Below are positions 1 to 59,656 of a stretch of 64,000 nt of DNA, in pieces. Positions within the stretch are counted from its first letter, which is position 1. Each line of letters opens with the position of its first letter. The position numbers were made by a program, and so were the translations under genes. The stretch comes from Muribaculaceae bacterium (GTDB taxonomy: Bacteria > Bacteroidota > Bacteroidia > Bacteroidales > Muribaculaceae). The notes beneath the pieces are model-generated. The model saw only the letters and a list, made by a program, of their open reading frames with translations. It had not been told where the DNA came from and ran no database searches. The stretch spans positions 1 to 64,000 of the forward strand of contig JAFLTT010000003.1 of the NCBI GenBank assembly GCA_022509165.1, in the 5' to 3' direction.

Positions 1-407
<407 letters not shown>

Positions 408-629
408 TTATCTATCTTTTCAGATCTCTTTTTTTCAGTTTGTCTGTCCGGCCGTCTCTCCAGGATATCGACGGGAAACTTGTATTATATACATAACCTT
501 GTTTCCCTATTTCTTGCTGCTCCGGCAATCCCGTTGATTCGGAATCGCCTGTCCTGTGGCATCATTTCATTGTTCTCTTAGTCCGCTAAAAAATCCCGGG
601 ACGTTGCGTTCCGGGCGCTTTTAGCAGTG

Positions 630-1040: not shown

Positions 1041-2627
1041 TCAGTAATCATAATCCAAGGAGAATTCATCCACATAGAGTGTGGCTCCATTTCCACCAGT
1101 GAAGAAGTCACCATATTTTGAAGCAGCACATGTTATTTGTATATAGGATGGCTTCGTGAAATAATCCCGGTATTGCAATTCTATTTCAAATGGAGCATAA
1201 TCTTCCATTGTGCCACTGTAGAGCAATTCACCGTATGCAATGATATAATCTGCATCTTTGTCAAATAATTGTCTTGTATTGGGATTAGTACGGATTTGAT
1301 AAGGAGCCGTCCAATCGGTCAAGGCAATATAAATATGACACGTATCAGGTTCTCCAATCAGATATTGTAAATCAGGATTGGATTTGCTCGCATAGTCTAT
1401 TTTGGCTGTCTTATACTGGTAATAGCCTCTTAGTTTGGTTGGTCTCAGATTGAATTGTCTACCAAAATCGAGAATACCGTTGGTACCATCCACTTTAGAA
1501 AAGCTACCTGTATATATTGAGCCGGCACCTAATTTTCCGATACCCAAAATACCAACAAACTTGGTGTTAAGTTCGGCTGCCTTTCCGGATCCGGTCACGG
1601 TATGGTCTGTAGGCACAACGTTGCTCTGTCCGAGAGTGGCTGCACCGGTGTTACCTGTATCCCAATAGGGAGTACCTCCTTCATTCCAGGGACACCAAAC
1701 TTTCCCATCCTTTAGCCACCATTGGTCGAAAGAACCATCAGGAAGATCCATCGTGCCTTGAGTAGTCAGCGTAATAATGTTGCCATACTCACCTTCTGAA
1801 ACCGTACGCACATCATAAGATGTGAGGGGTTCCAGATGAGGAATATAACAAGATAAGGTGCCACCATTCTGAGTGAGCCATGAAGGATCGATATCCTTCC
1901 ATTCTTCCGAATCTGACGCTTTATATTGGAAGGATCCGGATTTTCCTGCTTCACAGCTGCCGTATACCCAAACCACTTCACTCCAAGCCTCCGCATTATC
2001 TGTGCCTACAGTCTGTTCTACAACTTCTGCATAGATAGTCCAATATTCTGTGCGTCCGTGAGCCGTAACTTCCACCCGATAGGGATGATTCAGATCAATT
2101 GTACTGCCCGCTTGTATTACAGGCTGATAAGTGGTGATATCTTCAGGGCCCAGTTTTATAGACTCAATCTTTATATCACTTAGATCAATAGATTCCGGCA
2201 AATACACGATCACTCTGCAAGCAGCCGGATCTATCACCGTCTCCCCTATTTGCCCTTCAACCGTAAAATATCTCTCAATATTCTGCTCTGCCGTGATTTC
2301 CCAGAGGTATGTTTGATATCTTGTAATTTCCACAAACAAAGGCTTTGTCAGATTGTAAGTTCCTTCAGTCAGATCTATATCAGGCACCCCTCCTTCAGAA
2401 ACCTCAAATTTAGAAAATCTTACATTTTCTATATCTGTAGTTTCTTCGAGATAGAGTGTTACCTTAAGTCCGAGTACATCAATGAATGCAGCACGGCTCT
2501 GCCCTACGGCCTCTATTTCGGTTATGGTCTGGGTAATTTTGGGATAAGGCAAATCATTATGGATACAACCAGCCAGACCGGTCGCCACCAAAATCGTGAT
2601 TATAGTGAATCTGATTATATCTTTCAT
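1041..2627 (-). CDS. Lipoprotein with C-terminal PCMD (putative carbohydrate metabolism) domain
   Basis: Signal peptide MKDIIRFTIITILVATGLAGC; C-terminal half FDQWWLKDGKVWCPWNEGGTPYWDTGNTGAATLGQSNVVPTD...GKAAELNTKF...GKLGAGSIYTGSF typical of PCMD. ORF-track start (2696) trimmed to the Met before the signal peptide. Confidence 0.8.
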   Translation of the reverse strand: MKDIIRFTIITILVATGLAGCIHNDLPYPKITQTITEIEAVGQSRAAFIDVLGLKVTLYLEETTDIENVRFSKFEVSEGGVPDIDLTEGTYNLTKPLFVEITRYQTYLWEITAEQNIERYFTVEGQIGETVIDPAACRVIVYLPESIDLSDIKIESIKLGPEDITTYQPVIQAGSTIDLNHPYRVEVTAHGRTEYWTIYAEVVEQTVGTDNAEAWSEVVWVYGSCEAGKSGSFQYKASDSEEWKDIDPSWLTQNGGTLSCYIPHLEPLTSYDVRTVSEGEYGNIITLTTQGTMDLPDGSFDQWWLKDGKVWCPWNEGGTPYWDTGNTGAATLGQSNVVPTDHTVTGSGKAAELNTKFVGILGIGKLGAGSIYTGSFSKVDGTNGILDFGRQFNLRPTKLRGYYQYKTAKIDYASKSNPDLQYLIGEPDTCHIYIALTDWTAPYQIRTNPNTRQLFDKDADYIIAYGELLYSGTMEDYAPFEIELQYRDYFTKPSYIQITCAASKYGDFFTGGNGATLYVDEFSLDYDY

Positions 2628-2722
2628 TACAATTCGATTTTCCAATCGTATGTACTTCCAATTTAGAAGATTTTCCGGTGGATAAGGAATACGCAAATAT
2701 TCCTTATCCTAATTTAATTTAA

Positions 2723-4981
2723 TTAATTACTCCACCTTATTTCTCCGTATTCCAATTCAAAATCATCCACATACATCACAGAACTTGAGGATCCTGTGAA
2801 ATAATCTCCATATTTGGATGCGGAACATACTATAATAATATGTGTAGCCGGAGTAGTCTTAGCTTTTTCATTATAAATAATAGGAATGTTGATATCGGCC
2901 AATTCATTATCTGAACCTATCTTATTATTCCATGTTACTTCACCATATCCCAATATATTATCCCCTTGCGGTTCAAACATCTTTCCTTGGGCGGTATTCA
3001 GATCACACTGACTGCTGGCGATAGCCACAAAAATCTGACCATTGTCGTTATCACCCTTCGAAAAACCACTCACTTTGTCTTTACTTCCCACTTTATCTAC
3101 AGAACCCGGTTGATAATTAACCTTAACCTTGAGCGCTGAAGGATGAGATCCGTCGAATGGACGACCAAAGGTCAATTGAGCACCTGATGTCCCTTCATTC
3201 TTTATATAATTTCCAACAAATAGATTTCCGGCTGCAAGAACTGTCATAATTGTTTGAGATTTCAATTGTGCAACTGTATTGCCGTTTATAAAGGATGAAT
3301 TACTTGTAGTTAGATTCTTACTTGCAAGTTGTGAGCCGTGGTTACCTGAATCCCAGAATGATGAACTGTTGCCAACACCCGGGAAAGCCGCATTATTACT
3401 GAATTTCGACCATGTCTCCATGTTACCGAAAGGAATTTCAAATCGGGTCTCGGTAGTGAAGGAACGTGTTTTTTGCTCTTCATAATCATCACAGAAACCT
3501 TTGTATTCGTAGGTCTTACCGGGTTGAAGATTATCAATGGTAACAGAGAACCTGTCGCCTGCTGCACGTGTCAATGATCCGGGGGCATATACTTTTACAA
3601 ACTCATCATTACTGTTGGCCAATCTATACATGATACCATAATATTGGGCATCATCTGTATTAATTACACCTTCAAGCGTCACTTTATCTGACAAAATAGC
3701 CATAGGGCTTGTTTCAGGACTTGGAGGCTCAACACTTGAAATCAATTTATTGTCGAGTGCCTTATCTGTATTGGCTATCCTTATAATAATACTGTTACTT
3801 ATAGGAAGAGTACGGTTATCGGAAACTTTCACCTCTATCACATATTCAGAATTACTTTGAGGAAGTTGTCTGAAGAAATCCTGATTAAATCTCAACCAAC
3901 CTTCGTGCACCGAAATCGTCCCGTTGTCATCAGAAATCTGGCTGTCTGTGAGATGTTCGTAAGAGATACCTTTTGTCAAGAGTTGAGCACTTACCTCATC
4001 TCCTGTCATTCCGTTATTCCATATATTTTTACCATTTAAGTCGCTCATGTCTTCAAAGGTCTCGTTGAAATTCAATGAAAGACTCTTGAGGCCATAGTAA
4101 GCAACTACTCTTAGATAAAAATCATTGAAATTATTATCGGTACAATCTATTTGATTCTGCTCTACATCGAAGTCAGCACCTGCCAATTGAGATTTAAATG
4201 AAGGACCGGGATAAATGTAGAAAGTCTGATCCTTCACCGGAATATCAAGCACTTCAATTTTTACCAAGGCACCACCCTTATCGTTGTCTTTCTGTTCCGA
4301 CAAAAGCTGGAGTTTGTATTCGTGTGATCTTTTCACATCCTTGATGTCATTCTCTTCAGTTACTACTTTCCCGTCAGCTCCGGTTACCTCCACCTTATAA
4401 TGAAGCACATTGTCACCGTTAGGCATCATGAAGTAACCTTTCTTTCCTTCATCGATTTTATCCTTATCAAAGTCTAAAGATGCTCTTGTATGATTGAATG
4501 TAACGTTTACATCCTGAACACTTGGATCCAGATGAGTGATATCAATAGAAGCTATGACATTAGCTATATTCACTTCAAGAGTGACCTGTGTACTTTCTCC
4601 TGCCTCAACGCTAAATTTCTGATAACCGCGATAGAATTTCTTATCGTAGTCTGCAGAAACCGAGTCGCCTGTCCATCCTTCGATAGCATATTCCCCAACA
4701 TTGAGGATCATTGGAGACTCTACAGTGGAGACTCCGGTGTATTTGCGAATCACACCCTTGGAATTTTCAAGATAAATTGTCATCTCGTCTTCCAGTTTCT
4801 GTCGGATATCATCATCGATTGCAGCACGAGTTGACACTACCAAATCGCTATACATTTTGGTATTTAGGAACACAGTGCCTTCTCCCTGGGTTGAGAATGG
4901 AACCTCATTTGTACATGACTGAGTCCCTATGCCGGCTAAAATAATGACAGCCGAATATATTATACTATTTTTCGTTTTCAT
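2723..4981 (-). CDS. DUF4493-like lipoprotein with C-terminal PCMD-like domain
   Basis: Lipobox GIGTQSC followed by TNEVPFSTQGEGTVFLNTKM; C-terminal FGNMETWSKF...FWDSGNHGSQLASKN...MYVDDFELEY. Confidence 0.75.
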   Translation of the reverse strand: MKTKNSIIYSAVIILAGIGTQSCTNEVPFSTQGEGTVFLNTKMYSDLVVSTRAAIDDDIRQKLEDEMTIYLENSKGVIRKYTGVSTVESPMILNVGEYAIEGWTGDSVSADYDKKFYRGYQKFSVEAGESTQVTLEVNIANVIASIDITHLDPSVQDVNVTFNHTRASLDFDKDKIDEGKKGYFMMPNGDNVLHYKVEVTGADGKVVTEENDIKDVKRSHEYKLQLLSEQKDNDKGGALVKIEVLDIPVKDQTFYIYPGPSFKSQLAGADFDVEQNQIDCTDNNFNDFYLRVVAYYGLKSLSLNFNETFEDMSDLNGKNIWNNGMTGDEVSAQLLTKGISYEHLTDSQISDDNGTISVHEGWLRFNQDFFRQLPQSNSEYVIEVKVSDNRTLPISNSIIIRIANTDKALDNKLISSVEPPSPETSPMAILSDKVTLEGVINTDDAQYYGIMYRLANSNDEFVKVYAPGSLTRAAGDRFSVTIDNLQPGKTYEYKGFCDDYEEQKTRSFTTETRFEIPFGNMETWSKFSNNAAFPGVGNSSSFWDSGNHGSQLASKNLTTSNSSFINGNTVAQLKSQTIMTVLAAGNLFVGNYIKNEGTSGAQLTFGRPFDGSHPSALKVKVNYQPGSVDKVGSKDKVSGFSKGDNDNGQIFVAIASSQCDLNTAQGKMFEPQGDNILGYGEVTWNNKIGSDNELADINIPIIYNEKAKTTPATHIIIVCSASKYGDYFTGSSSSVMYVDDFELEYGEIRWSN

Positions 4982-4986
4982 AACTG

Positions 4987-6309
4987 TCATTCACTCCAAT
5001 CCTGATCAACAATAAATAAAAATTCTATTTCATTTTCGCCTGTGGAATCTCCAAGTTGAATAATAAACTTATGAGTGCCTTCACCTAACATACATAACAT
5101 GCTCATAAATTTGCTTATATCAAAATGTACGTCCTTCTCTCCCGCTAAAGTATCCTTATCATCCGGCAAAAGGCCCAAAAATCCATGTAAGTCATCAAGC
5201 ATTTCGGGATTCGGAGAAACGAGATCAATCTCTTTCATATCTGCCAAAGTTTCATCTGATGACACTATGATTATCTTAAATGTTTCAATACCATTTTCGC
5301 CGTCAGAATGAATATCCAGTATCACCTTAGTATCAGGTGTTACAATATTTTCTCCAAATTCAACGGTTGATTCACCTAAGTCGACAGAGGGACCTTCGGT
5401 TTCCGGATCATCGGGTGTCGGAGGGTTAGGAGTTGGTGTCTGACCGGGATCTGGGCCCTCTTCAGGTTCTTCAGTTGGCCAGGTCACATCATCAAGGGGT
5501 TTGTCTTCGTCTTCAGGGACATTAGTGGAAACTTTGTTGACATCAACCTTAGCATCTACCTTAATATCTCCTTCTATATTCCCCTGGTCTTCACCCTGGT
5601 AAGAATGACGATAGAAAGTGAGTCGATAGTGGTTACCGGCTTCTACATTATCTAATGTCTTTATCTCTGATATTTGGGATCCATCTACATTACCTCTGAA
5701 CTGAGCAGTAAGGGTACAGACACCATCCTGCTTAAAAAATCCCGGAATTGGATTAGAACTGTCATAATGTTCCTTCTTGAAAGTAAGAGGTTGTCCCTGA
5801 TTCACCCATACTTCAATTTCCGGTTCACCTTCAATATGCTTTAGTAGTTCGGAATCAAGCACTACGGAAACCATCACATTTTTTAGGCTACAAGAGATAG
5901 TCTCCAAATCAGATGTAATTTCATTGGCCCTTACATCGAAATTCCGTGACACACCCTTGAAATGCGGATTGTTCCAGGCTGCCTCCTGATCTTCGTTGTA
6001 TGTCACTTCTATACGATAATTACCCGCACTCAATGTTACAATGTCGGGAAGATCGCGAAGCATGAATTGTTTTACCGGTTGATTTGAAGATGTGTTAATG
6101 AATTTCACATCAAAATCATCAACGTTTAGATTGCTTAAACCGGCACGGGTAGACTTTATAGTCTCGTCCACCTCCAGTTCTACACCGAGTGCTGACTTGC
6201 TGAAGTAACCCTCGCCCTGCAGGCTTGGCCCTTGAAATGGTGTCTCAACCGAGCAAGATGCCAAAATCAAGGAAAGACCACAAATTATATTTATATTTTT
6301 TGCCTTCAT
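4987..6309 (-). CDS. DUF4493-like lipoprotein with Pro/acidic linker
   Basis: Lipobox LILASC, SVETPFQGPSLQGEGYFSKSALGVELEVDE; shares N-terminal pattern with neighbours; TGA/ATG overlap with next gene in the track. Confidence 0.65.
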   Translation of the reverse strand: MKAKNINIICGLSLILASCSVETPFQGPSLQGEGYFSKSALGVELEVDETIKSTRAGLSNLNVDDFDVKFINTSSNQPVKQFMLRDLPDIVTLSAGNYRIEVTYNEDQEAAWNNPHFKGVSRNFDVRANEITSDLETISCSLKNVMVSVVLDSELLKHIEGEPEIEVWVNQGQPLTFKKEHYDSSNPIPGFFKQDGVCTLTAQFRGNVDGSQISEIKTLDNVEAGNHYRLTFYRHSYQGEDQGNIEGDIKVDAKVDVNKVSTNVPEDEDKPLDDVTWPTEEPEEGPDPGQTPTPNPPTPDDPETEGPSVDLGESTVEFGENIVTPDTKVILDIHSDGENGIETFKIIIVSSDETLADMKEIDLVSPNPEMLDDLHGFLGLLPDDKDTLAGEKDVHFDISKFMSMLCMLGEGTHKFIIQLGDSTGENEIEFLFIVDQDWSE

Positions 6310-6327
6310 TTTATTTCAGTCATTTTT

Positions 6328-8991
6328 TTAATACATGAATTCTAAATCATCCACTACCAAAGTAGCACCATGTTGATAGGATTCATAACGTGAGATATAG
6401 ATGGTAACTGTTATTGTTTCTCCATTTTCATGATAAGATGAGGAGAAGCTAATTTTTAACAGAGCGGACTTTCCACAATTGAAATTATAATCTAATGGAA
6501 TAGAAAATTCAGTAAATTGGTCACTCGGGGTAAGATAAGAAGTACCTTTAGATATTTCCTCTCCACTCTCAGAAAGAAGACTTATAGAAACCACACCATA
6601 TTCATCTAATTCATTCAAATCCGGTGAGTATTTATACCATCCTTTTAAAAATAATGGCCTAGAATTAAATTGGCATCCTTCTTGGGTTACTACAGGATTT
6701 GAAGAGTCACTAAATGTAGCTAAAAACATTTTACCTACAGTTTTTTTAGAAATATTAGGAACATCATGATTATAGTAATCGTCAAAACCTATCTTTGTTT
6801 TGTACCAATCAGTAAGTTTTTCTCCGGATGGGTCCCACGCCACATTTCTGATAACCATTGACACATCTCCTGAATGAGAACCAAAACCCTGGTACGAGTC
6901 TGGAGTAGAATCTCCAGCGCCTATAGGTAAGCTACTAGCTCCTGTACCTCTGTTATGCGAATTATAGGATAAGTTACTATTGAAAACTGAAGGCTGCCTA
7001 TACCAGGTATTATTTGTACCAGTCATAGTTTCTGTGTTTGTAGACGCCCAGTTTACCGGTTCATGAATTGTATATTTTGCTGTATTTTGATAATAGACTC
7101 CCTTTGATACTCCCCATTCTCCACCTTGATTAATACTAGAAATATTATATGTTTCTCTAAGTGTTTCAAAATCTCCATTAGGCACTTTATTAGCCTCTTC
7201 TGTCTGGAAGGAAGGTATCTCAGTTCCTTGATACGTGTCAGTCATCTGGAGACCCAGATAGGCTTTCCATCCGGAGTAAGTTTTCTGTTGTTCCAGCCCT
7301 GTCACAACTATAATTCCATCTTTAGCCTGACTACGGTCTACATAATTTGATGATAAAGTAGAACGTCCGTCATATATATTGATGTTGTTGGCTATCAATT
7401 CTGCCTTCCCTGGTTCAGCGTTCTCAAACTTTATTTTTACTCTCATGGCAAACGGGTCAGTCAGAACTGTGAATTCCGGTAATTTTACATCTACCACCTG
7501 AAGTAATTCCTTCAAATCAGCATATTGAACCTGGACAGTCCATTGATTATCGTTGATGGTTGAAGTGGAGATCTCCAATTCATATTTGTATTCTCCTTCG
7601 GCATCTCCCGGAGTTGAACTTAAAACCTTACCGACAGTGGCATTTACACCTTCTCCATCAGTGGCATTAAATTTGAAATTTTTCTCAGCCAGTTTTTCAC
7701 AATTCGATTTGATTGTAATTTTTATCTTGTTATCTAAAAATTCCGGTTTTTCATACCCAACAATTGAATAATCTATTGCCTTAACGATTGCTTTTAACAC
7801 CTGAAGGTCTTCCTGCACAGCACTTGTGCGTCCAAGTTTGTCTTTCACAATTAGAGAAGCCGAATAGTCTCCCTGATTCAGGTTATTCAGATATTCCTTG
7901 AAATTTATTACTCCGAATTCACCTTGATTAGTAAAGAAACCGCTACATTCTACTTTAGCAGATGCCAAAAGAGCCTGATCTGAAGCTGAAGCATTTATAA
8001 GTTGCACTGTGTATGAATCAGATCCATTAGTAGGAACCTTTGCTCCATTGGCAGCTGTAAGGGTCAGTTCAGCAGAAGCTAATCCAGCAAGTGCCATAAC
8101 ATGGAATTCCGGAGCCTCATCAATTTCAAGTTCATGGGCCCAGAATTCTATAGGAGTTTCTGAAATAAAACCTTTGGCTACTACTGAAGGGGCTTCAGTT
8201 GTGAAGAGTTCATCGGTCAGATTTATCTCTATCGGATCCTCTTCTATAATATTTTCGGAAACATGGATATCCATAGCTTTGTTACCTTTCTCCCCTGTGG
8301 TAACACCCACGGTCACAACATAATGATGTTTGGCTGAAAGATTAAGGGATGTCGGATTGACTTTCACTGTCTGGCCTGCGCGGTTAGTAAGGTTGATGTA
8401 AAGCTGAGCCATCCCCGGAGCAAAATAAGCGGGCCTTGTCTCTCTGTTTACATATGCTACAGCCGTATGACCTGTGGTTTGCACCTCTGCACTATAACCG
8501 TTGGGATATAAAGAAGCAAAGTCTTCTGAATATCTCACACTTACCATGGCATTAGCCAAAGTAGCTGTAAGAGTTTTAGAAGTAGTATCTCCGAGTCTTA
8601 CACTAACATCAGTTTGTCCCTCATAGTACGGACATTCAAAACCTTCCGTATTAATATTACCATAAAAAGCCGAAAGGGTGTAAACTCCCTGAGGGAATCC
8701 ATCTGTTTTATTAAAAGCTTCCAAACTTTCCCAGGTTCTGTTGTAACTGTTGTCTGAACTAACCAGACTCACTGAGAAATTAGCCGGATCAACCTGCATC
8801 GCATAACTGTCGGCGTCATCATCGGCCCGACTTCCTGATACAACACTTGAATCAGTCACAAGATTCAGGTTGATCTTACCGTCGGCTCGCTCTTGAGAAC
8901 TCCATGGTGCCTCGTTTGCACAAGATGTCGCCATCAATGTTGCAACAAGGGCAAACATGGATAAGGGTCCGTTAAATTTTTTGAAATTCAT
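6328..8991 (-). CDS. DUF4493-like lipoprotein with C-terminal PCMD/CBM-like domain
   Basis: Lipobox LMATSC, ANEAPWSSQERADGKINLNLVTDS; C-term VPNGDFETLRE...LVVDDLEFMY. Confidence 0.7.
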   Translation of the reverse strand: MNFKKFNGPLSMFALVATLMATSCANEAPWSSQERADGKINLNLVTDSSVVSGSRADDDADSYAMQVDPANFSVSLVSSDNSYNRTWESLEAFNKTDGFPQGVYTLSAFYGNINTEGFECPYYEGQTDVSVRLGDTTSKTLTATLANAMVSVRYSEDFASLYPNGYSAEVQTTGHTAVAYVNRETRPAYFAPGMAQLYINLTNRAGQTVKVNPTSLNLSAKHHYVVTVGVTTGEKGNKAMDIHVSENIIEEDPIEINLTDELFTTEAPSVVAKGFISETPIEFWAHELEIDEAPEFHVMALAGLASAELTLTAANGAKVPTNGSDSYTVQLINASASDQALLASAKVECSGFFTNQGEFGVINFKEYLNNLNQGDYSASLIVKDKLGRTSAVQEDLQVLKAIVKAIDYSIVGYEKPEFLDNKIKITIKSNCEKLAEKNFKFNATDGEGVNATVGKVLSSTPGDAEGEYKYELEISTSTINDNQWTVQVQYADLKELLQVVDVKLPEFTVLTDPFAMRVKIKFENAEPGKAELIANNINIYDGRSTLSSNYVDRSQAKDGIIVVTGLEQQKTYSGWKAYLGLQMTDTYQGTEIPSFQTEEANKVPNGDFETLRETYNISSINQGGEWGVSKGVYYQNTAKYTIHEPVNWASTNTETMTGTNNTWYRQPSVFNSNLSYNSHNRGTGASSLPIGAGDSTPDSYQGFGSHSGDVSMVIRNVAWDPSGEKLTDWYKTKIGFDDYYNHDVPNISKKTVGKMFLATFSDSSNPVVTQEGCQFNSRPLFLKGWYKYSPDLNELDEYGVVSISLLSESGEEISKGTSYLTPSDQFTEFSIPLDYNFNCGKSALLKISFSSSYHENGETITVTIYISRYESYQHGATLVVDDLEFMY

Positions 8992-9016
8992 AATATTATA
9001 TGATGTTTGATTTATT

Positions 9017-10240
9017 TCAAATATTAACTGCTATACCAAAATTGATATTGAAAATATTGAATCGGAAATTGGCCCCCGAGGTAGTACGTTGTCCCAAATC
9101 TTCATCATTCACTTTTTGCTTTTCATTCTTTATATTAAGACCGAAAACACCTAAAGAAACATTAAATGAGACTTGATCGAGTACATAAACGCATACTCCC
9201 GGTGAGAAATTCAATGCTGCCTGGAAAGTAGTGGTATGTGTCTTACGCATCTCCCCATTGAAGGGACGATGGAAATCTGATGTACCTCCGGAAAGTGCAA
9301 GTTCCACTTCATTAAACACTCCAAATCTTCCTTTCCTGGCAATACCTAAATATTGTGAAAAGGTAATAGAGGCTGAATAGCTATTGCTTTTATACATGAT
9401 ATCATGAAGACTGAAGCTCATGTCTTCATCGATGTCTAAATTAAAAGAACCGATTGATGCTTTCCCTTCAGTGTAGCCAAGCCTTAGACCCAAGGAAAGA
9501 TTACTTTTTATAAAATAAGAGAAATAAGGACGTATTGACCATAATTTTCCACTAAAATCTATATCCGAAATAAGGTCTAATATTTCAAGATTTGCTGTAG
9601 AAAATTCACCGTAAGATGCTGTGAGACCTACCTGCCAGATACCTTTGGGTATAAACAAGAAATTAAACAATCCTCGGTCATATCTACCCAGATTCCTGTC
9701 CTTAAGAACCATGTTGATGGTATCACCCCTGAAGAGCACTTTCTCATAAGGATTTATTTCCTCTTCATTATTTTTAATTCTCGCTGTCACAGGTATTTCC
9801 CCGTAAGTGAGGAGTTCTTGTACTTTACCATCCATTGAATCCGGTACCCATACGTATTTACCCCCGGACTTTACTAAATCCTCGTTCACAATCCGGCTCT
9901 CGTCCACCGAAGTTGATTCTATTTCTATCATATCTTCTTCAATAGAAGGAGAAAGTGCGATTCCGGGTATTACGATTTCTGAATTGGACTGAGGATTGGC
10001 AGTCCCCGCGTTTTCTATTTCATTGAATGGTTCATCACTGTAATATCTCACTACTCTTTCGGTTCTGTGCACCACGTCATCGCGTGAAATTATTTCCCTT
10101 ATATGAATAGTGTCGGTACGGTAAATGGTATCTACTCTTAATTTTTGTGGCGAGGCATTTACCACCGTTTCAGCCTCCATGGCTCCTATTGAAACCATGA
10201 GGGATATTATTGCAATTATTATCTTCCTCATGACTTTCAT
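9017..10240 (-). CDS. Outer-membrane beta-barrel protein
   Basis: Signal peptide; alternating beta-strand pattern; C-term ANFRFNIFNINFGIAVNI; paralogous to 10237..11112. Confidence 0.65.
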   Translation of the reverse strand: MKVMRKIIIAIISLMVSIGAMEAETVVNASPQKLRVDTIYRTDTIHIREIISRDDVVHRTERVVRYYSDEPFNEIENAGTANPQSNSEIVIPGIALSPSIEEDMIEIESTSVDESRIVNEDLVKSGGKYVWVPDSMDGKVQELLTYGEIPVTARIKNNEEEINPYEKVLFRGDTINMVLKDRNLGRYDRGLFNFLFIPKGIWQVGLTASYGEFSTANLEILDLISDIDFSGKLWSIRPYFSYFIKSNLSLGLRLGYTEGKASIGSFNLDIDEDMSFSLHDIMYKSNSYSASITFSQYLGIARKGRFGVFNEVELALSGGTSDFHRPFNGEMRKTHTTTFQAALNFSPGVCVYVLDQVSFNVSLGVFGLNIKNEKQKVNDEDLGQRTTSGANFRFNIFNINFGIAVNI

Positions 10241-11112
10241 AGATAAAAGGTGGCTCCGAATGTAATCGAGAAAAGATTAATCCGGAAATTAGCTGACTGT
10301 GAATTTCTGGTAGAGACATATACCTGGTCTTTTACAGCCCGGGTTTCAGTATAATTGAAGCCCAGAAGACCCACATTCACCTCCATAGCAGAATAATTGC
10401 TAAGGAAGATACAGATACCGGGCGTGAGACCCACGTTAAGGGAGAAATTCCTTTCATAAGTACCTGTAAGATCATCTCCCACACCGGTAGTGAGTTTCGT
10501 CTGGCCTCCTCCCATCTGGAGAGAAACCTCATTAAAAAATCCGAAACGCTTACTCTTTCCGATAGAGAAATAATTTCTCATCAGTGCAGCACCATAATAA
10601 TTGTGGGATAACCGATAAAGATGATCAAAAGAATAATTTGTTTCTGCATCAAGGACTATATCGGCATTTGCTACCTTAGTCAAGGATCTTGCATAAGAAA
10701 ACCTCCCGCCTAATGCTAAGTCAGCTTTCACAGCAAACATCACCATAGGTGAAATCTTAAAACTGTAGGTGTCGCCCGATATTCCTTCCAGTATAAGGAA
10801 CTGATACTTGTCTTGCGAGGATTGGGTATAGGAAACTGACAGACCGAATATCCATTGACCTTTGGGAATGAAGTTCACCGATTCTATGTCTCTCTTGAAT
10901 TCCTCTAATTTTTCCGGTTCCTGCTCTTTTTCTTTTTTCTCCCGGGTTTCATCTTTAACCGGAGTATTTTCTTCCGATAGCTCTACTTCAGAGATATCAG
11001 AATAAATTTCTTTCCCATTATCAAATACAGGTAATGCAGCCTGTGAATAAATACAGGCAGTGAGCATCAGAATTAAGGAAAAATATCTTAAACCCTTTAA
11101 GGGGGAATACAT
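10237..11112 (-). CDS. Outer-membrane beta-barrel protein (paralogue of neighbour)
   Basis: Signal peptide MYSPLKGLRYFSLILMLTACIYSQA; C-term ANFRINLFSITFGATFYL. ORF-track start at 11271 lies inside a terminator stem and upstream of a TACATTTG -7 box, so 11112 is preferred. Confidence 0.65.
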   Translation of the reverse strand: MYSPLKGLRYFSLILMLTACIYSQAALPVFDNGKEIYSDISEVELSEENTPVKDETREKKEKEQEPEKLEEFKRDIESVNFIPKGQWIFGLSVSYTQSSQDKYQFLILEGISGDTYSFKISPMVMFAVKADLALGGRFSYARSLTKVANADIVLDAETNYSFDHLYRLSHNYYGAALMRNYFSIGKSKRFGFFNEVSLQMGGGQTKLTTGVGDDLTGTYERNFSLNVGLTPGICIFLSNYSAMEVNVGLLGFNYTETRAVKDQVYVSTRNSQSANFRINLFSITFGATFYL

Positions 11113-11237: not shown

Positions 11238-11275
11238 ACAAAAAAATAGGCGCAATCTTTATTAATTGCACCTAT
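11238..11275 (-). terminator. Intrinsic terminator downstream of the PepSY-like gene
   Basis: Minus strand ATAGGTGCAAT-TAATAAAG-ATTGCGCCTAT followed by TTTTTTTT. Confidence 0.8.
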
Positions 11276-42981: not shown

Positions 42982-44013
42982 TTATTTTTTCAACTTCTCT
43001 GAAGCCTCTTTAAAGGCATTCATGATCTTGGTAGGCATAAAGCTTTCATAGGCTCCTAAGGAATATCCCCCTCCCTCTGGAGTATGGATAGAGGTGGGTT
43101 CCCAATAAAACACCCCCGGGCAATTCCCATCTGTATCGTTCATAGCAGCATTTATAAGTCTCGAAAGGAAATCATATCCCTCCTCAGGTAACCATACAGC
43201 CACTCCTGTCTCTACAATATACACCTTGCAGTCAAACTCTTTTGAGAGATAATTGATATTGTCTATTATATCTGTCACAGCTTCCTTGGTAGTCTGGTCT
43301 CTTTTGCTCCAGTATGGATAAACACTCATACCAATGGCATCAAATTTTCCTCCCATTCTCCTCATGGCATTAAACACATATTCATAAAGAAAACGGTTGT
43401 ATCCGTCATCAAGATGGGTTATCACCACAGCATCGGGGAATACGCTCTTAACTGCATCATAGCCGGCATTTGAAAGTTCCACATAAGCTTCCATATGATC
43501 CGGAATTCTGGCCATAGGCCAGACCATTCCATTGGTGGTTTCATTTCCCACCTGCACCCATTTCACATTGATTCCATTATCTTTCAGAAGTTGCAATGTG
43601 CCCGCAGTATGTTCTGCAAGTTTACCTTTCACCACTTCCAGCGGTAAGTCAAGCCATTCCTTCGGGCTATTGTTATGGCCGGGATCAGCCCAGGTATCGC
43701 TATAATGGAAGTCAATCATGATCTCCATCCCTTGGTTTTGTGCCCTTCTTGCCATTTCAAGTACATGGCGGGGAGTGTTGAATCCATTTTCACTGTTCAC
43801 CCATACCTTAAGTCTGATAGCATTCAATCCGAATTCTTTCATAAGGGCTGTATTCTCCATGGGTTGCTTGTCGGTGGTATAATTCACCACTCCGATTGCC
43901 TCCTGTTCCGGAGTGCCGCTTATATCGGCACCGAGCCAGAAAACTTCTGCTTCTTGTGCATGTATAGGCAACAAACCTAAAACTGCTAAACATGCAAGTA
44001 ATTGTTTTTTCAT
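42982..44013 (-). CDS. Glycoside hydrolase family 53 arabinogalactan endo-beta-1,4-galactanase-like
   Basis: GADISGTPEQE...RLKVWVN...MIDFHYSDTWADPGHNNSPKEW; VQVGNETTNGMVWP; YIVETGVAVW. Confidence 0.93.
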   Translation of the reverse strand: MKKQLLACLAVLGLLPIHAQEAEVFWLGADISGTPEQEAIGVVNYTTDKQPMENTALMKEFGLNAIRLKVWVNSENGFNTPRHVLEMARRAQNQGMEIMIDFHYSDTWADPGHNNSPKEWLDLPLEVVKGKLAEHTAGTLQLLKDNGINVKWVQVGNETTNGMVWPMARIPDHMEAYVELSNAGYDAVKSVFPDAVVITHLDDGYNRFLYEYVFNAMRRMGGKFDAIGMSVYPYWSKRDQTTKEAVTDIIDNINYLSKEFDCKVYIVETGVAVWLPEEGYDFLSRLINAAMNDTDGNCPGVFYWEPTSIHTPEGGGYSLGAYESFMPTKIMNAFKEASEKLKK

Positions 44014-44141
44014 AATGCTGTTTATTGATAAGTATAAATGAATTTTTTCTATCCTAATTCATTCTCAAAGATATAAAAATTTCTTATTTCCCTATATCCT
44101 ATTATTTTATTAATTTTGCATGTTACCTTAAAATACACATC

Positions 44142-47100
44142 ATGAAACTTTTAATCAAAACTATTTTTGCGTTCCTACTGTCTCTCCCGGTAGCCACAGC
44201 AATGGGCCATGTGGGATGGCCCGCTAACTACGATGGAGTAATGCTCCAGGGTTTCTATTGGGATTCTTACAAAGGTTCCAATACTACCAAATGGACAGAT
44301 TTGACAAAACAGGCCGATGAACTTTCGGAGTTTTTCGACCTGATTTGGGTCCCCAACAGTGGGAAAGCCACTGGAGAAAATGGAGGAGGAAATGGTTATA
44401 TGCCAATCTATTGGTTCTCTAACCATAATTGTGCTTTTGGCACTGAGGCTGAATTAAAGACAATGATCAGCACTTTTAAGGCAAAAGGTGTAGGATTCAT
44501 TGAAGATGTTGTAGTGAATCACCGTGCTGGAGCTACCAATTGGTATAATTTCCCCAAAGAAACTTGGAACGGAAAGACATATGAACTTACAAATGGAGCT
44601 ATTTGTTCCACGGATGAAATGTGGAAGGAAGGTGGTCAAGGTTGTCCATATACCAGAGGTAATGCAGATACCGGAGAAGACTTCAATGGTGCTCGTGATT
44701 TAGACCATACTAACGCTACTGTGCAAAGTCATATCAAAGACTATTGTAAATTCCTTCTTGATGATTTGGGTTATGTGGGTTTCCGTCTTGACATGGTGAA
44801 AGGTTACGGAGGTCAATACACCAAAATCTACAATGAATACAGCAAACCAAAATTCAGTGTAGGTGAATACTGGGATGGCAACTATGATGCTGTAGCTGCT
44901 TGGATTGAAGCAACCGGGAAGTCTTCTGCTGCTTTCGATTTCCCAGGAAAATATCAGCTTAATAAAGCAATGAATGATAACCATGAGAATCTGACTGAAC
45001 TGGTGTGGAAAGCCAACGGAACTACTGATCAACCTGCCGGTATGATCCACTTTGGTTATCCTCAATTCGCGGTAACTTTCGTTGATAATCATGATACTTA
45101 CCGTGATGGTAGCAAATTCACAGGAAATGTTTTAGCTGCTAATGCCTTTATCCTCTGTTCACCGGGAACGCCATGTGTTTTCTGGCCTCACTGGTCTCAA
45201 TATAAGGAACAAATCCAGGCCATGATTAAGGCCCGTAAAGAGGCCGGCATACACAATATGTCAGCTGTGAAAGTTCTTAAGAGTGCCGGTAACATTTACA
45301 TGGCAGAAGTGACAGGTACTAAAGGTAAACTCGTAGTGAAACTTGGTTCAGAAGACGGTTCGGCTCCTGGTGGTTCTTATCGTCTTGCGACATCAGGTAA
45401 TGGTTATGCTATATGGATTACGAATTCAGGTGGAACAGGCGAAGTTTCTAAGGAAGCTTTCACAATCTATTTCGACAACACTAACAGCAAATGGGCTACT
45501 CCTTATGTTCACTACTGGGGCGCTTCTGAAAGCACCTATCCCGGTGTGGCAATGTCTAAGGTTAACGGAAATGTTTGGAGCTATACAGTTCCTGCAGGTA
45601 CCATAGGTATTCTTTTCAACGCAGGCGATGGTGACGCCACTAAGACCGTGGATATGAATCCTCAACCAAACCATCTTTATACAACTTCAGGCGACCAAGG
45701 AGTTTACAGTGGTTCCGGTGGCAACCAAGGTGGTGGTAACAACCAAGGCGGAAATACAGGAAGCAATTTTGTTATCTACTATAACAATAGCACCAGCAAA
45801 TGGGCTACTCCTTATGTTCACTACTGGGGTGGCACGGCAAGTACTTATCCCGGTGTGGCTATGAACAGTGTTGGTAACGATGTTTGGAGCTACACAGTTC
45901 CGGCTGGTACTACAGGTATTCTTTTCAATGCAGGTGATGGTGACGCCACCAAGACTTCGGATTTTGTGGCCCAACCGAATCATATTTACACTCAATCAGG
46001 CGACCAAGGTGTATACGGTGGTGCCGGTGGTAATCAAGGCGGCGGTAACCAGGGTGGTGGAAACGCTCCTGCTACTTTGTATCTGATTGGTAATATGCCT
46101 GCTCCTGCCGGATGGGGCGAGACTCCTGGAACAGGCCTCCTCATGACTAAGAACGGTGACGTATTCACTGCAACAAATGTCAACCTTGCCGGTATGACAG
46201 ATATTGACCCTGCTTACTTCCGTTTCTCTGCCACTATTTCTGACAATTGGGACGACCTTTCAGAACAATACGGTCCTATAGATGGCAATGTGGATATCGT
46301 GCTGGGACAACCGGTAGATTTTGCTGGACAGCCTGGAGACAATAGCTATGTGGTCCCAACCGGATTCTATGACATAACTGTGGACTTCTCCTCTAAGAAG
46401 GTAACTGTGACCAGTAACGGTCAAGGTGGCGGTAATCAAGGCGGTGGTGACGACAACCAAGGCGGTGGAAACGCTCCTGCTACTTTGTATCTGATTGGTA
46501 ATATGCCTGCTCCTGCCGGATGGGGCGAGACTCCTGGAACAGGCCTCCTCATGACTAAGAACGGTGACGTATTCACTGCAACAAATGTCAACCTTGCCGG
46601 TATGACAGATATTGACCCTGCTTACTTCCGTTTCTCTGCCACTATTTCTGACAATTGGGACGACCTTTCAGAACAATACGGTCCTATAGATGGCAATGTG
46701 GATATCGTGCTGGGACAACCGGTAGATTTTGCTGGACAGCCTGGAGACAATAGCTATGTGGTCCCAACCGGATTCTATGACATAACTGTGGACTTCTCCT
46801 CTAAGAAGGTAACTGTGACCAGTAACGGTCAAGGTGGCGGTAATCAAGGCGGTGGTGACGACAACCAAGGCGGTGGAAACGCTCCTGCTACTTTGTATCT
46901 GATTGGTAATATGCCTGCTCCTGCCGGATGGGGCGAGACTCCTGGAACAGGCCTCCTCATGACTAAGAACGGTGACGTATTCACTGCAACAAATGTCAAC
47001 CTTGCCGGTATGACAGATATTGACCCTGCTTACTTCCGTTTCTCTGCCACTATTTCTGACAATTGGGACGACCTTTCAGAACAATACGGTCCTATAGATG

Positions 47101-47807
47101 GCAATGTGGATATCGTGCTGGGACAACCGGTAGATTTTGCTGGACAGCCTGGAGACAACAGTTATGTGGTCCCAACCGGATTCTATGACATAACTGTGGA
47201 CTTCTCCTCTAAGAAGGTAACTGTGACCAGTAACGGTCAAGGTGGTGGTAACCAAGGCGGTGGTGATGACAACCAGGGCGGTAACGAAGATGATGAGTTC
47301 GAAGGTGTTGAACTTTACCTAATCGGTAATGTCAACGGTTTTGATTGGAAAACTGATCAGGGAATACTTATGACTAAGGCTGGAAATGTATACAGCACTA
47401 CTGCTACAATCGATGATGCAGGTGAAGGATGCGGATACTTCGCATTCGCTACAGTACTCGGTGAAGATTGGGATGCTCTAAACTCAGGTGACCGTTACGG
47501 TGCTCCTGCCAAGGACACTCCGGCTTCTGTAGGTGAGATCCATACTGTAACTCATTACCCGGCTATGGTAAATGCTTCAGCAAGCGAGTCTTGGATGATC
47601 GAACCGGGGGCATATACTTTCAAAGTAGACCTTAAGCATAAGGAACTCTCAATTGCAAAATCAGGTACTGTCGGTGTTGATTCTTTGGAATCTGAAAATG
47701 CTGAAGTAATTTACTTCAACCTCCAGGGTGTGAAAGTAAACAATCCTTCAAAGGGCATATACATTAAAGTGACAGGTAATAAGAGAGAAAAAGTGATGGT
47801 AAGATAA
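44142..47807 (+). CDS. GH13 alpha-amylase with two CBM26-like starch-binding domains and repeated SusE/F-like domains
   Basis: GH13 triad motifs GFRLDMVKG, VGEYWDGN, FVDNHDTYRDG; two YVHYWG...TYPGVAM...AGDGDATKT domains; four TLYLIGN(M/V)-type domains; C-terminal YFNLQGVKVNNPSKGIYIKVTGNKREKVMVR. Confidence 0.93.
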   Translation: MKLLIKTIFAFLLSLPVATAMGHVGWPANYDGVMLQGFYWDSYKGSNTTKWTDLTKQADELSEFFDLIWVPNSGKATGENGGGNGYMPIYWFSNHNCAFGTEAELKTMISTFKAKGVGFIEDVVVNHRAGATNWYNFPKETWNGKTYELTNGAICSTDEMWKEGGQGCPYTRGNADTGEDFNGARDLDHTNATVQSHIKDYCKFLLDDLGYVGFRLDMVKGYGGQYTKIYNEYSKPKFSVGEYWDGNYDAVAAWIEATGKSSAAFDFPGKYQLNKAMNDNHENLTELVWKANGTTDQPAGMIHFGYPQFAVTFVDNHDTYRDGSKFTGNVLAANAFILCSPGTPCVFWPHWSQYKEQIQAMIKARKEAGIHNMSAVKVLKSAGNIYMAEVTGTKGKLVVKLGSEDGSAPGGSYRLATSGNGYAIWITNSGGTGEVSKEAFTIYFDNTNSKWATPYVHYWGASESTYPGVAMSKVNGNVWSYTVPAGTIGILFNAGDGDATKTVDMNPQPNHLYTTSGDQGVYSGSGGNQGGGNNQGGNTGSNFVIYYNNSTSKWATPYVHYWGGTASTYPGVAMNSVGNDVWSYTVPAGTTGILFNAGDGDATKTSDFVAQPNHIYTQSGDQGVYGGAGGNQGGGNQGGGNAPATLYLIGNMPAPAGWGETPGTGLLMTKNGDVFTATNVNLAGMTDIDPAYFRFSATISDNWDDLSEQYGPIDGNVDIVLGQPVDFAGQPGDNSYVVPTGFYDITVDFSSKKVTVTSNGQGGGNQGGGDDNQGGGNAPATLYLIGNMPAPAGWGETPGTGLLMTKNGDVFTATNVNLAGMTDIDPAYFRFSATISDNWDDLSEQYGPIDGNVDIVLGQPVDFAGQPGDNSYVVPTGFYDITVDFSSKKVTVTSNGQGGGNQGGGDDNQGGGNAPATLYLIGNMPAPAGWGETPGTGLLMTKNGDVFTATNVNLAGMTDIDPAYFRFSATISDNWDDLSEQYGPIDGNVDIVLGQPVDFAGQPGDNSYVVPTGFYDITVDFSSKKVTVTSNGQGGGNQGGGDDNQGGNEDDEFEGVELYLIGNVNGFDWKTDQGILMTKAGNVYSTTATIDDAGEGCGYFAFATVLGEDWDALNSGDRYGAPAKDTPASVGEIHTVTHYPAMVNASASESWMIEPGAYTFKVDLKHKELSIAKSGTVGVDSLESENAEVIYFNLQGVKVNNPSKGIYIKVTGNKREKVMVR
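46061..47284 (+). repeat. Three tandem in-frame 408-bp repeats (136 aa each) within the amylase gene
   Basis: AAACGCTCCTGCTACTTTGTATCTGATTGG recurs at 46061, 46469 and 46877 (408-bp spacing); copies 1 and 2 read as identical, copy 3 shows a few synonymous changes near its 3' end. Confidence 0.97.
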
Positions 47808-57917: not shown

Positions 57918-58781
57918 ATGAGACAACTTAAAATTACTCCGGGTAATATTACAGCCCGTGGTACAAGATCTATAGAAAAATACCTTCAGGAAATAGGACA
58001 CTGCGATCTTATCAGTGCCAATGAAGAGGTAGAACTTACACAAAAAATTAAAAAAGGAGACGTAGAAGCTCGCAACAAATTGGTAATGGCCAATTTGCGT
58101 TTCGTCGTTTCTGTAGCTAAACAATATCAGAACCAGGGCCTTAGTCTGGAAGATCTGATCGATGAAGGTAACATCGGGCTTATCAGAGCTGCAGAAAAAT
58201 TTGACGAAACAAGAGGTTTCAAATTTATCTCATATGCCGTTTGGTGGATTCGCCAAAGCATCCTCTCTGCCCTTGAAGAGCAGACACGTATTGTAAGGTT
58301 ACCTCAAAACCAGGTGGGTATCCAGAAAAAGATTTCTCAGGCTAACATGGAATTCGAACAGAAACATGGACGCCTCCCTTCTTCTGAAGAACTTTCTGAG
58401 ATACTTGACCTTCCTGCCAACAAAATTGAAGAACTCATAAAAGTTTCCGGAAAACACATCTCAATGGATGCTCCTTTTGCTGACGGGGAAGACGGTTCTT
58501 TGCTCGATGTACTGCCTAATAACGACAGTCCCAGAGCTGACTCCGTGCTTAATAAAGAGAGCCTCAGTAAAGAAATAGACCGGGCCCTTATGCAGCTTTA
58601 CGACCGTGAACGCGAAATCCTTAAGATGTTTTTTGGAATCGGTTGTCAGGAAATGTCTCTCGAAGAGATCGGGGATAAGTTCGACCTTACAAGGGAGCGT
58701 GTGCGCCAGATTAAAGAGAAGGCTATCAAAAGACTCAAAGGTCAGAAAAGCCGCCTTCTCAGAAGTTACCTTGGCGAATAA
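57918..58781 (+). CDS. RpoD-like sigma-70 factor (divergent paralogue)
   Basis: [58 protein letters not shown]; region 4 [29 protein letters not shown]. Confidence 0.95.
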
Positions 58782-58795
58782 ATTCTGTTTCCGGA

Positions 58796-59656
58796 ATGCG
58801 GCAATTAAAAATCACCAAATCAATTACTAATCGCGAAAGCGCTTCTCTTGATACCTATCTTTCGGAAATAGGACGTGAAGAACTTATTTCTCCGGCTGAA
58901 GAAGTAGAACTGGCTCAAAGAATCAAAAAAGGGGATCATGCGGCTCTTGAAAAACTCACAAGAGCCAACCTTCGTTTTGTCGTTTCTGTAGCCAAGCAAT
59001 ATCAAAACCAAGGCCTTAGTCTTCCCGACCTTATTAATGAGGGGAATCTGGGACTTATTCGTGCTGCAAAAAAATTTGATGAGACGCGTGGGTTCAAATT
59101 CATCTCTTATGCAGTATGGTGGATCCGCCAAAGCATATTGCAGGCCCTTGCAGAACAAAGTCGTATCGTAAGGTTGCCATTAAATCAGGTAGGCTCTCTA
59201 AACAAAATTACTAAGGAGCTTTCTAAATTTGAACAAGAAAATCAGCGCCGTCCCTCTCCGGAAGAATTGGCTGATAGGCTCGGAATGCCGGTAGACAAGG
59301 TTGCTGACGCTTTAAAAGTTTCCGGCCGCCATATTTCGGTCGACGCCCCGTTTACCGATGGTGAAGACAATTCCCTCCTTGATGTGTTGCCGAATGAAAA
59401 CAGCCCTATGGCCGACAGAACGCTCAATCAAGAAAGCCTTTCTCGTGAAATTGACAGAGCTCTCAAGCAACTATACGACCGAGAGAGGGATATTATCAAA
59501 ATGTTTTTTGGTATTGGATATCCCGAAATGTCGCTTGAAGAAATAGGTGATAAATTCGGCCTTACCCGTGAAAGAGTGCGCCAGATTAAAGAGAAGGCTA
59601 TAAAAAGGCTAAAAGGACAGAAAAGCAAACTCCTTAAATCTTATCTCGGAGAATAA
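58796..59656 (+). CDS. rpoD: RpoD-like sigma-70 factor (closest to the canonical Bacteroidetes housekeeping sigma)
   Basis: [31 protein letters not shown]...[35 protein letters not shown]...[33 protein letters not shown]. Confidence 0.95.

Follow-up and report, generated by a model that had tools for sequence, protein, structure and literature searches.

The window analysed here is the first 64 kb of contig JAFLTT010000003.1, from the 2.59-Mb genome of a Muribaculaceae bacterium. It contains a cluster of six open reading frames (ORFs), all present on the minus strand between 1041 and 11112, which in transcription order encode two outer-membrane barrel proteins, OMP-A and OMP-B (A and B), and four lipoproteins, D8, D4, DP, and P (Table 1). 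The original prediction described a tight six-gene unit, and its ORFs, its two 4-bp overlaps, and its upstream terminator are all borne out. The overlaps are both ATGA, at 10237-10240 (A/B) and 4987-4990 (D4/DP). The remaining intergenic gaps measure 25, 18, and 95 bp, and the only long one, between DP and P, holds a hairpin that is possibly a processing or attenuation site. In relatives, the median over 302 gaps inside the cluster is 6 bp. The ATGA overlaps, the short gaps, and the terminator (11275-11246) together support a single unit. The stretch from the end of P (1041) to the tRNA-Ala gene (924-846) showed no terminator, and the only one sits beyond the tRNA, so the six-gene unit may read through into tRNA-Ala. 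A TACATTTG -7 box had also been claimed upstream of the unit. Two occurrences were seen against 2.7 expected, which is not above chance, and this promoter box was dropped; no TTTG was seen at the usual distance upstream of TACATTTG.

Table 1. Genes and other features at the left end of the window
Feature	Position	Strand	Description
OMP-A (A)	10237-11112	-	291 aa; signal peptide, acidic linker, predicted 8-stranded outer-membrane beta-barrel
OMP-B (B)	9017-10240	-	407 aa; barrel paralogous to A, long N-terminal extension
D8	6328-8991	-	887 aa lipoprotein; DUF4493 (38-259), middle region, divergent C-terminal PCMD-like jelly roll
D4	4987-6309	-	440 aa lipoprotein; DUF4493 (33-265), proline-rich linker, strand-rich second domain
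DP	2723-4990	-	755 aa lipoprotein; DUF4493 (36-257), weak Fn3-like region, full PCMD (525-746)
P	1041-2627	-	528 aa lipoprotein; C-terminal PCMD domain
Intrinsic terminator	11246-11275	-	12 pairs and T-run; ends upstream PepSY-like gene, marks upstream edge of unit
Perfect 12-bp hairpin	2680-2709	-	DP-P gap; without T-run on the minus (coding) strand
tRNA-Ala	924-846	-	between 16S rRNA and P
16S rRNA gene, partial	1-408	-	contig begins inside gene

D8, D4, and DP match the Pfam family DUF4493 (PF14900) at 137, 118, and 104 bits respectively, above its curated cut-off of 27 bits, and the genome has no DUF4493 gene outside the six-gene unit. The Pfam family PCMD (PF13201, cut-off 28 bits) is matched by P at 149.7 bits and by DP at 121.4 bits (E 6.6e-35), and one further PCMD gene lies elsewhere in the genome. 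The single PCMD lipoprotein proposed earlier is therefore an undercount, since DP also carries a full PCMD domain and D8 a sub-threshold one. Neither OMP-A nor OMP-B of the window matches a Pfam barrel family; OMP_b-brl is weakly matched by a few OMP-A relatives. None of the six window proteins matches an NCBIfam model. A search of one literature library found no published function for the six-gene set and returned nothing there on the DUF4493 or PCMD domains by name.

Of 149 genomes sampled from the family, 114 encode OMP-A, covering 27 of 30 genera; the corresponding count for the order is 32 of 295, 27 of these 32 at E below 1e-10. DUF4493 was found in 127 and 34 genomes of the same samples, respectively. 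Within the family, 114 genomes have both, 13 have DUF4493 only, and 22 have neither (Fisher p 1e-17); within the order, 25 have both, two have OMP-A only, nine have DUF4493 only, and 259 have neither (Fisher p 1e-26), related genomes not being independent in either test. The original prediction had suggested checking whether these genes co-occur, and they do: DUF4493 is present in 114 of the 114 family genomes with OMP-A and in 25 of 27 in the order. Beyond the order, a phylum-wide OMP-A search returned mainly weak, partial barrel matches. Muribaculaceae are a common family of gut bacteria, and roughly three in four of the sampled genomes carry the OMP-A gene. Together with the recurrence of the cluster across the order, this frequency points to a widespread surface system without an assigned function.

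Across 80 Muribaculaceae loci, A and B are found in 75, A, B, and P in 65, D8, D4, and DP in 46, and all six genes in 39. The commonest order, D8-D4-DP-A-B-P, is exact in 30 of the 80 and also occurs at six loci from other Bacteroidales families. The order seen in the window, A-B-D8-D4-DP-P, is found in four near relatives and A-B-P-D8-D4-DP in one, while several relatives transcribe the D block divergently. Seven loci from other families have a one-barrel version, and at three of these one-barrel loci two extra DUF4493 genes come after P, which suggests repeated expansion of the D module. At a further locus (L178, 576-4080), three consecutive short DUF4493 genes stand before OMP-A in place of D8-D4-DP. 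The OMP and DUF4493 genes lie on separate contigs in some genomes (at least three), and three loci have A-B-P with no D gene within 10 kb on either side. Given this lack of linkage, the cluster consists of an A-B-P module and a D8-D4-DP module. Within the family, pairwise identities have medians of 61% for A, 52% for B, and 56% for P, and 32% for D8, 36% for D4, and 41% for DP; judged by these values, A-B-P is a slowly evolving module and D8-D4-DP a fast-evolving one.

Comparison of models and profiles indicates that DUF4493 is a distant member of the fimbrillin (type V pilus) superfamily. Of the top 20 Foldseek matches to the AlphaFold model of D4 (pLDDT 83), most are adhesins of Bacteroidales or type V pilus proteins, including BACEGG_00536, BACOVA_04077, BT2657, BDI_3522, the FimA1 prepilin, and Mfa2 (E 6e-7 to 6e-5, probability 1.0); the exceptions are two streptococcal proteases. 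Aligned with hhalign, the DUF4493 profile scored 70% with Mfa2 and 59% with Mfa_like_1, which score 36% with each other, and 0.1-0.2% with PCMD and OMP controls. Lipoboxes are present in 60 of 64 D8, 80 of 82 D4, 64 of 65 DP, and 80 of 85 P homologues. The post-lipobox pattern that the original prediction noticed in the three DUF4493 proteins proved to be general, reading C-x-x-[E/D]-x-P-[F/W] in dozens of relatives, and the N-terminus of P, C-I-x-N-D-[L/I]-P-Y-P, is almost invariant among P relatives. Further downstream, a single alignment column holds a basic residue (R/K) between Thr and Ala in 54 of 60 D8, 59 of 80 D4, and 61 of 64 DP sequences; where the site reads T/S-R-A, the Arg lies 25-44 residues past the lipid cysteine. 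In P. gingivalis, arginine gingipains cleave Mfa1 at Arg49 before it polymerises (PMC5954841), which makes T-R/K-A a candidate processing site in D8, D4, and DP. By analogy, the DUF4493 proteins may be cleaved there.

The most interesting rival explanation follows the same line: the cluster would be a type V pilus variant in which an arginine- or lysine-specific protease cuts DUF4493 at T-R/K-A, releasing the first strand for a donor-strand exchange polymer, with the barrels as a new anchor and PCMD as a tip lectin. Like FimA/FimB and Mfa1-Mfa5, the D proteins combine a fimbrillin-superfamily domain with a lipidated N-terminus and a basic site past the first strand. The R/K column is kept in all three despite only 32-41% identity, the spacing from Cys to Arg is within the range expected from Arg49 of Mfa1 (PMC5954841), and the site falls in a low-confidence loop of the D4 model. 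We nevertheless consider such a polymer unlikely. None of the six proteins is an Mfa2/FimB-type anchor or a small major pilin, and the DUF4493 domain occupies the N-terminal part of proteins 440-887 aa long, an arrangement that shaft pilins do not have; the cluster instead adds two barrels and PCMD modules to large multidomain proteins. Classical type V genes are located elsewhere in the same genome, and the T-R-A motif may be plain superfamily inheritance. Four contigs of this genome carry several separate Mfa2-type genes, which probably belong to ordinary type V pilus loci unconnected with the cluster.

Both outer-membrane barrels that had been predicted are present, with the correction that A and B are paralogous to each other (about 28% identical; profile match 100%). 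The AlphaFold model of OMP-A (pLDDT 81) has eight long strands. Among solved structures its best matches are OmpA, OmpW, OprG, and NspA, at no more than moderate significance (best E 5.6e-4). Eight-stranded barrels have no usable pore and are too narrow for protein export, so OMP-A is likely to serve as an anchor or docking site. Its predicted extracellular tips are almost as conserved as the barrel (0.65-0.73 against 0.76), which weakly suggests that they serve for docking and are not a variable antigen. A link to the mucin transporter Mul1B was set aside, as it was found for only 1 of 22 OMP-A relatives (E 0.0075).

A barrel of this kind is known from the S-layer of B. thetaiotaomicron, where the S-layer lipoprotein BT1927 is putatively anchored, or helped in secretion, by BT1926, which is predicted to be 8-stranded (PMC12578637). 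The cluster could similarly be a coat in which an 8-stranded barrel anchors a large, cell-shielding surface lipoprotein. By the published description the parts match, a predicted 8-stranded barrel adjoining a surface lipoprotein of roughly 100 kDa (PMC12578637), and D8 evolves fast. The cluster differs, however, in its paired barrels, its four lipoproteins, its retained PCMD pockets, and its six conserved genes as opposed to two or three. The published 19-bp invertible-promoter repeat was looked for in the window and had 0 matches with up to three mismatches, and no NCBIfam model matched the OMP-A relatives well. A coat of this type is therefore quite improbable.

The conservation of A, B, and P, with A in most of the family, is also what might be expected if A-B-P acted in outer-membrane or surface-lipoprotein assembly, the D proteins being clients or shields. 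The Bacteroidota BAM, a barrel with surface lipoproteins, is an assembly machine of this kind (PMC12578637). BAM with BamG-K, RagAB, and SusCD all resemble the cluster in joining an integral barrel to several partner lipoproteins with a conserved lipoprotein N-terminus. The barrels of the cluster are small, however, with eight strands rather than a larger number, and no sequence relation was seen. Given also that the cluster is absent from many complete family genomes and from most of the order, a role in envelope assembly or homeostasis seems very unlikely.

Four PCMD relatives have been solved: 4jrl, 3s30, 4het, and 3hbz (BT2081). BT2081 pairs an immunoglobulin (Ig)-like domain with a jelly roll that holds a calcium site and a deep, conserved pocket; Asp259 and Asp338 were proposed to be catalytic, with Arg290 neighbouring Asp259 (PMC2954218). 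We traced the BT2081 sites through 85 homologues of P and 65 of DP. Trp145, Asn149, Gly151, Ala198, Ser334, Gly337, Asp338, and Asp351 are kept in at least 90% of these, and positions 202, 206, 261, and 340 are still aromatic in most. Asp259 is replaced, mostly by His, Gln, Ile, or Asn, and Arg290 mostly by Glu or Gln. As the pocket is kept while these proposed catalytic residues are replaced, a binding role is likelier than hydrolysis. The idea that PCMD acts as a glycoside hydrolase was marked down, the two candidates being replaced in nearly all members. The related C-terminal strands reported by the original prediction correspond to the final strand of PCMD, where the calcium ligand Asp351 (BT2081 numbering) sits. 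The PCMD domains of the cluster thus share the jelly roll, calcium ligand, and aromatic pocket of the BT2081 family and of the surface glycan-binding lipoproteins of polysaccharide utilisation loci (PULs). They are unlike these in the replacement of Asp259/Arg290, the fusion to or partnership with DUF4493, and the non-PUL setting.

PCMD relatives do occur in PULs and the BT2081 pocket is sugar-like (PMC2954218). Furthermore, BT1761, named as a BT2081 paralogue (PMC2954218), is a levan surface glycan-binding lipoprotein (PMC12578637). The lipoproteins might on these grounds be orphan surface glycan-binding proteins of a capture or uptake locus working without SusCD, with the barrels passing small sugars. 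We give this little credence: 8-stranded barrels would offer no usable pore, the unit has no SusC, SusD, or hydrolase domain, and the proposed catalytic residues of PCMD are lost. The window contains no SusD; on this contig the closest is at 223.6 kb, about 212 kb off, and a PUL reading was rejected for want of a nearby SusD, as the original prediction had already concluded. That prediction had also called plausible a barrel-lipoprotein complex whose lipoproteins have carbohydrate-binding-like folds; the barrel-lipoprotein anatomy stands, and so does the fold for PCMD, but not for DUF4493 with its fimbrillin superfamily fold.

We therefore favour, tentatively and at somewhat less than even confidence, the explanation that the cluster encodes a SusCD-independent, outer-membrane-anchored glycan-binding adhesin complex with fimbrillin-fold stalks. 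The gene set, its conservation and modules, the lipoboxes, the DUF4493 superfamily, the PCMD pocket residues, and the barrel fold were computed, and from these we infer surface exposure, a physical complex, a glycan ligand, and adhesion. OMP-A and OMP-B would be narrow 8-stranded docking anchors, pores for neither protein nor sugar. P evolves slowly and has a nearly invariant N-terminal tail; it would be the core lipoprotein docked on the barrels. The DUF4493 domains of D8, D4, and DP may form diversifying stalks or short strand-exchanged assemblies, and the PCMD pockets of DP and P would bind, probably without cleaving, host or bacterial glycans. On this proposal DUF4493 gains a superfamily and a working hypothesis, and the cluster is predicted to include lectins and a new barrel-lipoprotein complex. 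A bolder reading, a new class of Bacteroidales surface appendage defined by barrel-anchored fimbrillin-fold lipoproteins, basic-site protease maturation, strand-exchange assembly, and non-catalytic PCMD lectins, is doubtful.

Several observations weigh against the adhesin proposal. At the order level, DUF4493 and OMP-A do not always coincide: nine genomes encode only the former and two only the latter. The PCMD domain of D8 falls below the cut-off (22.3 bits, E 1.2e-4) and its pocket is lost. For the fimbrillin matches of D4, TM-scores by target are 0.30-0.46, below 0.5 and from one predicted model, and the D4 profile found nothing when run against the sequences of the PDB. A surface-export signal has been described for lipoproteins (PMC5080379), with a rule that asks for at least two acidic residues in the six positions following the cysteine (PMC12578637). 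The window's own lipoproteins have one each, a weak surface-export signal, especially in P. Among relatives, at least two acidic residues are found in about 60% of D8, D4, and DP compared with 19% of P. Surface exposure of the lipoproteins is, from these sequences, likely but not certain.

The genes flanking the cluster, as sampled in relatives, are mostly housekeeping genes or genes of unknown role: cmk, ispH, and those for a deaminase, DAGK, PAP2, DUF4435 ATPases, and a DUF4923 lipocalin-like protein. One GlgB-like gene and one surface-repeat protein gene also occur. Elsewhere in the window, a GH53 endo-galactanase gene adjoins that of a 1221-aa alpha-amylase with CBM26 modules (42982-47807), with no SusD in the window. 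On the plus strand, 57918-58781 and 58796-59656 are tandem primary-type sigma-70 genes that are 73% identical and each have regions 1.2, 2, 3, and 4; they form a duplicated RpoD-like pair.

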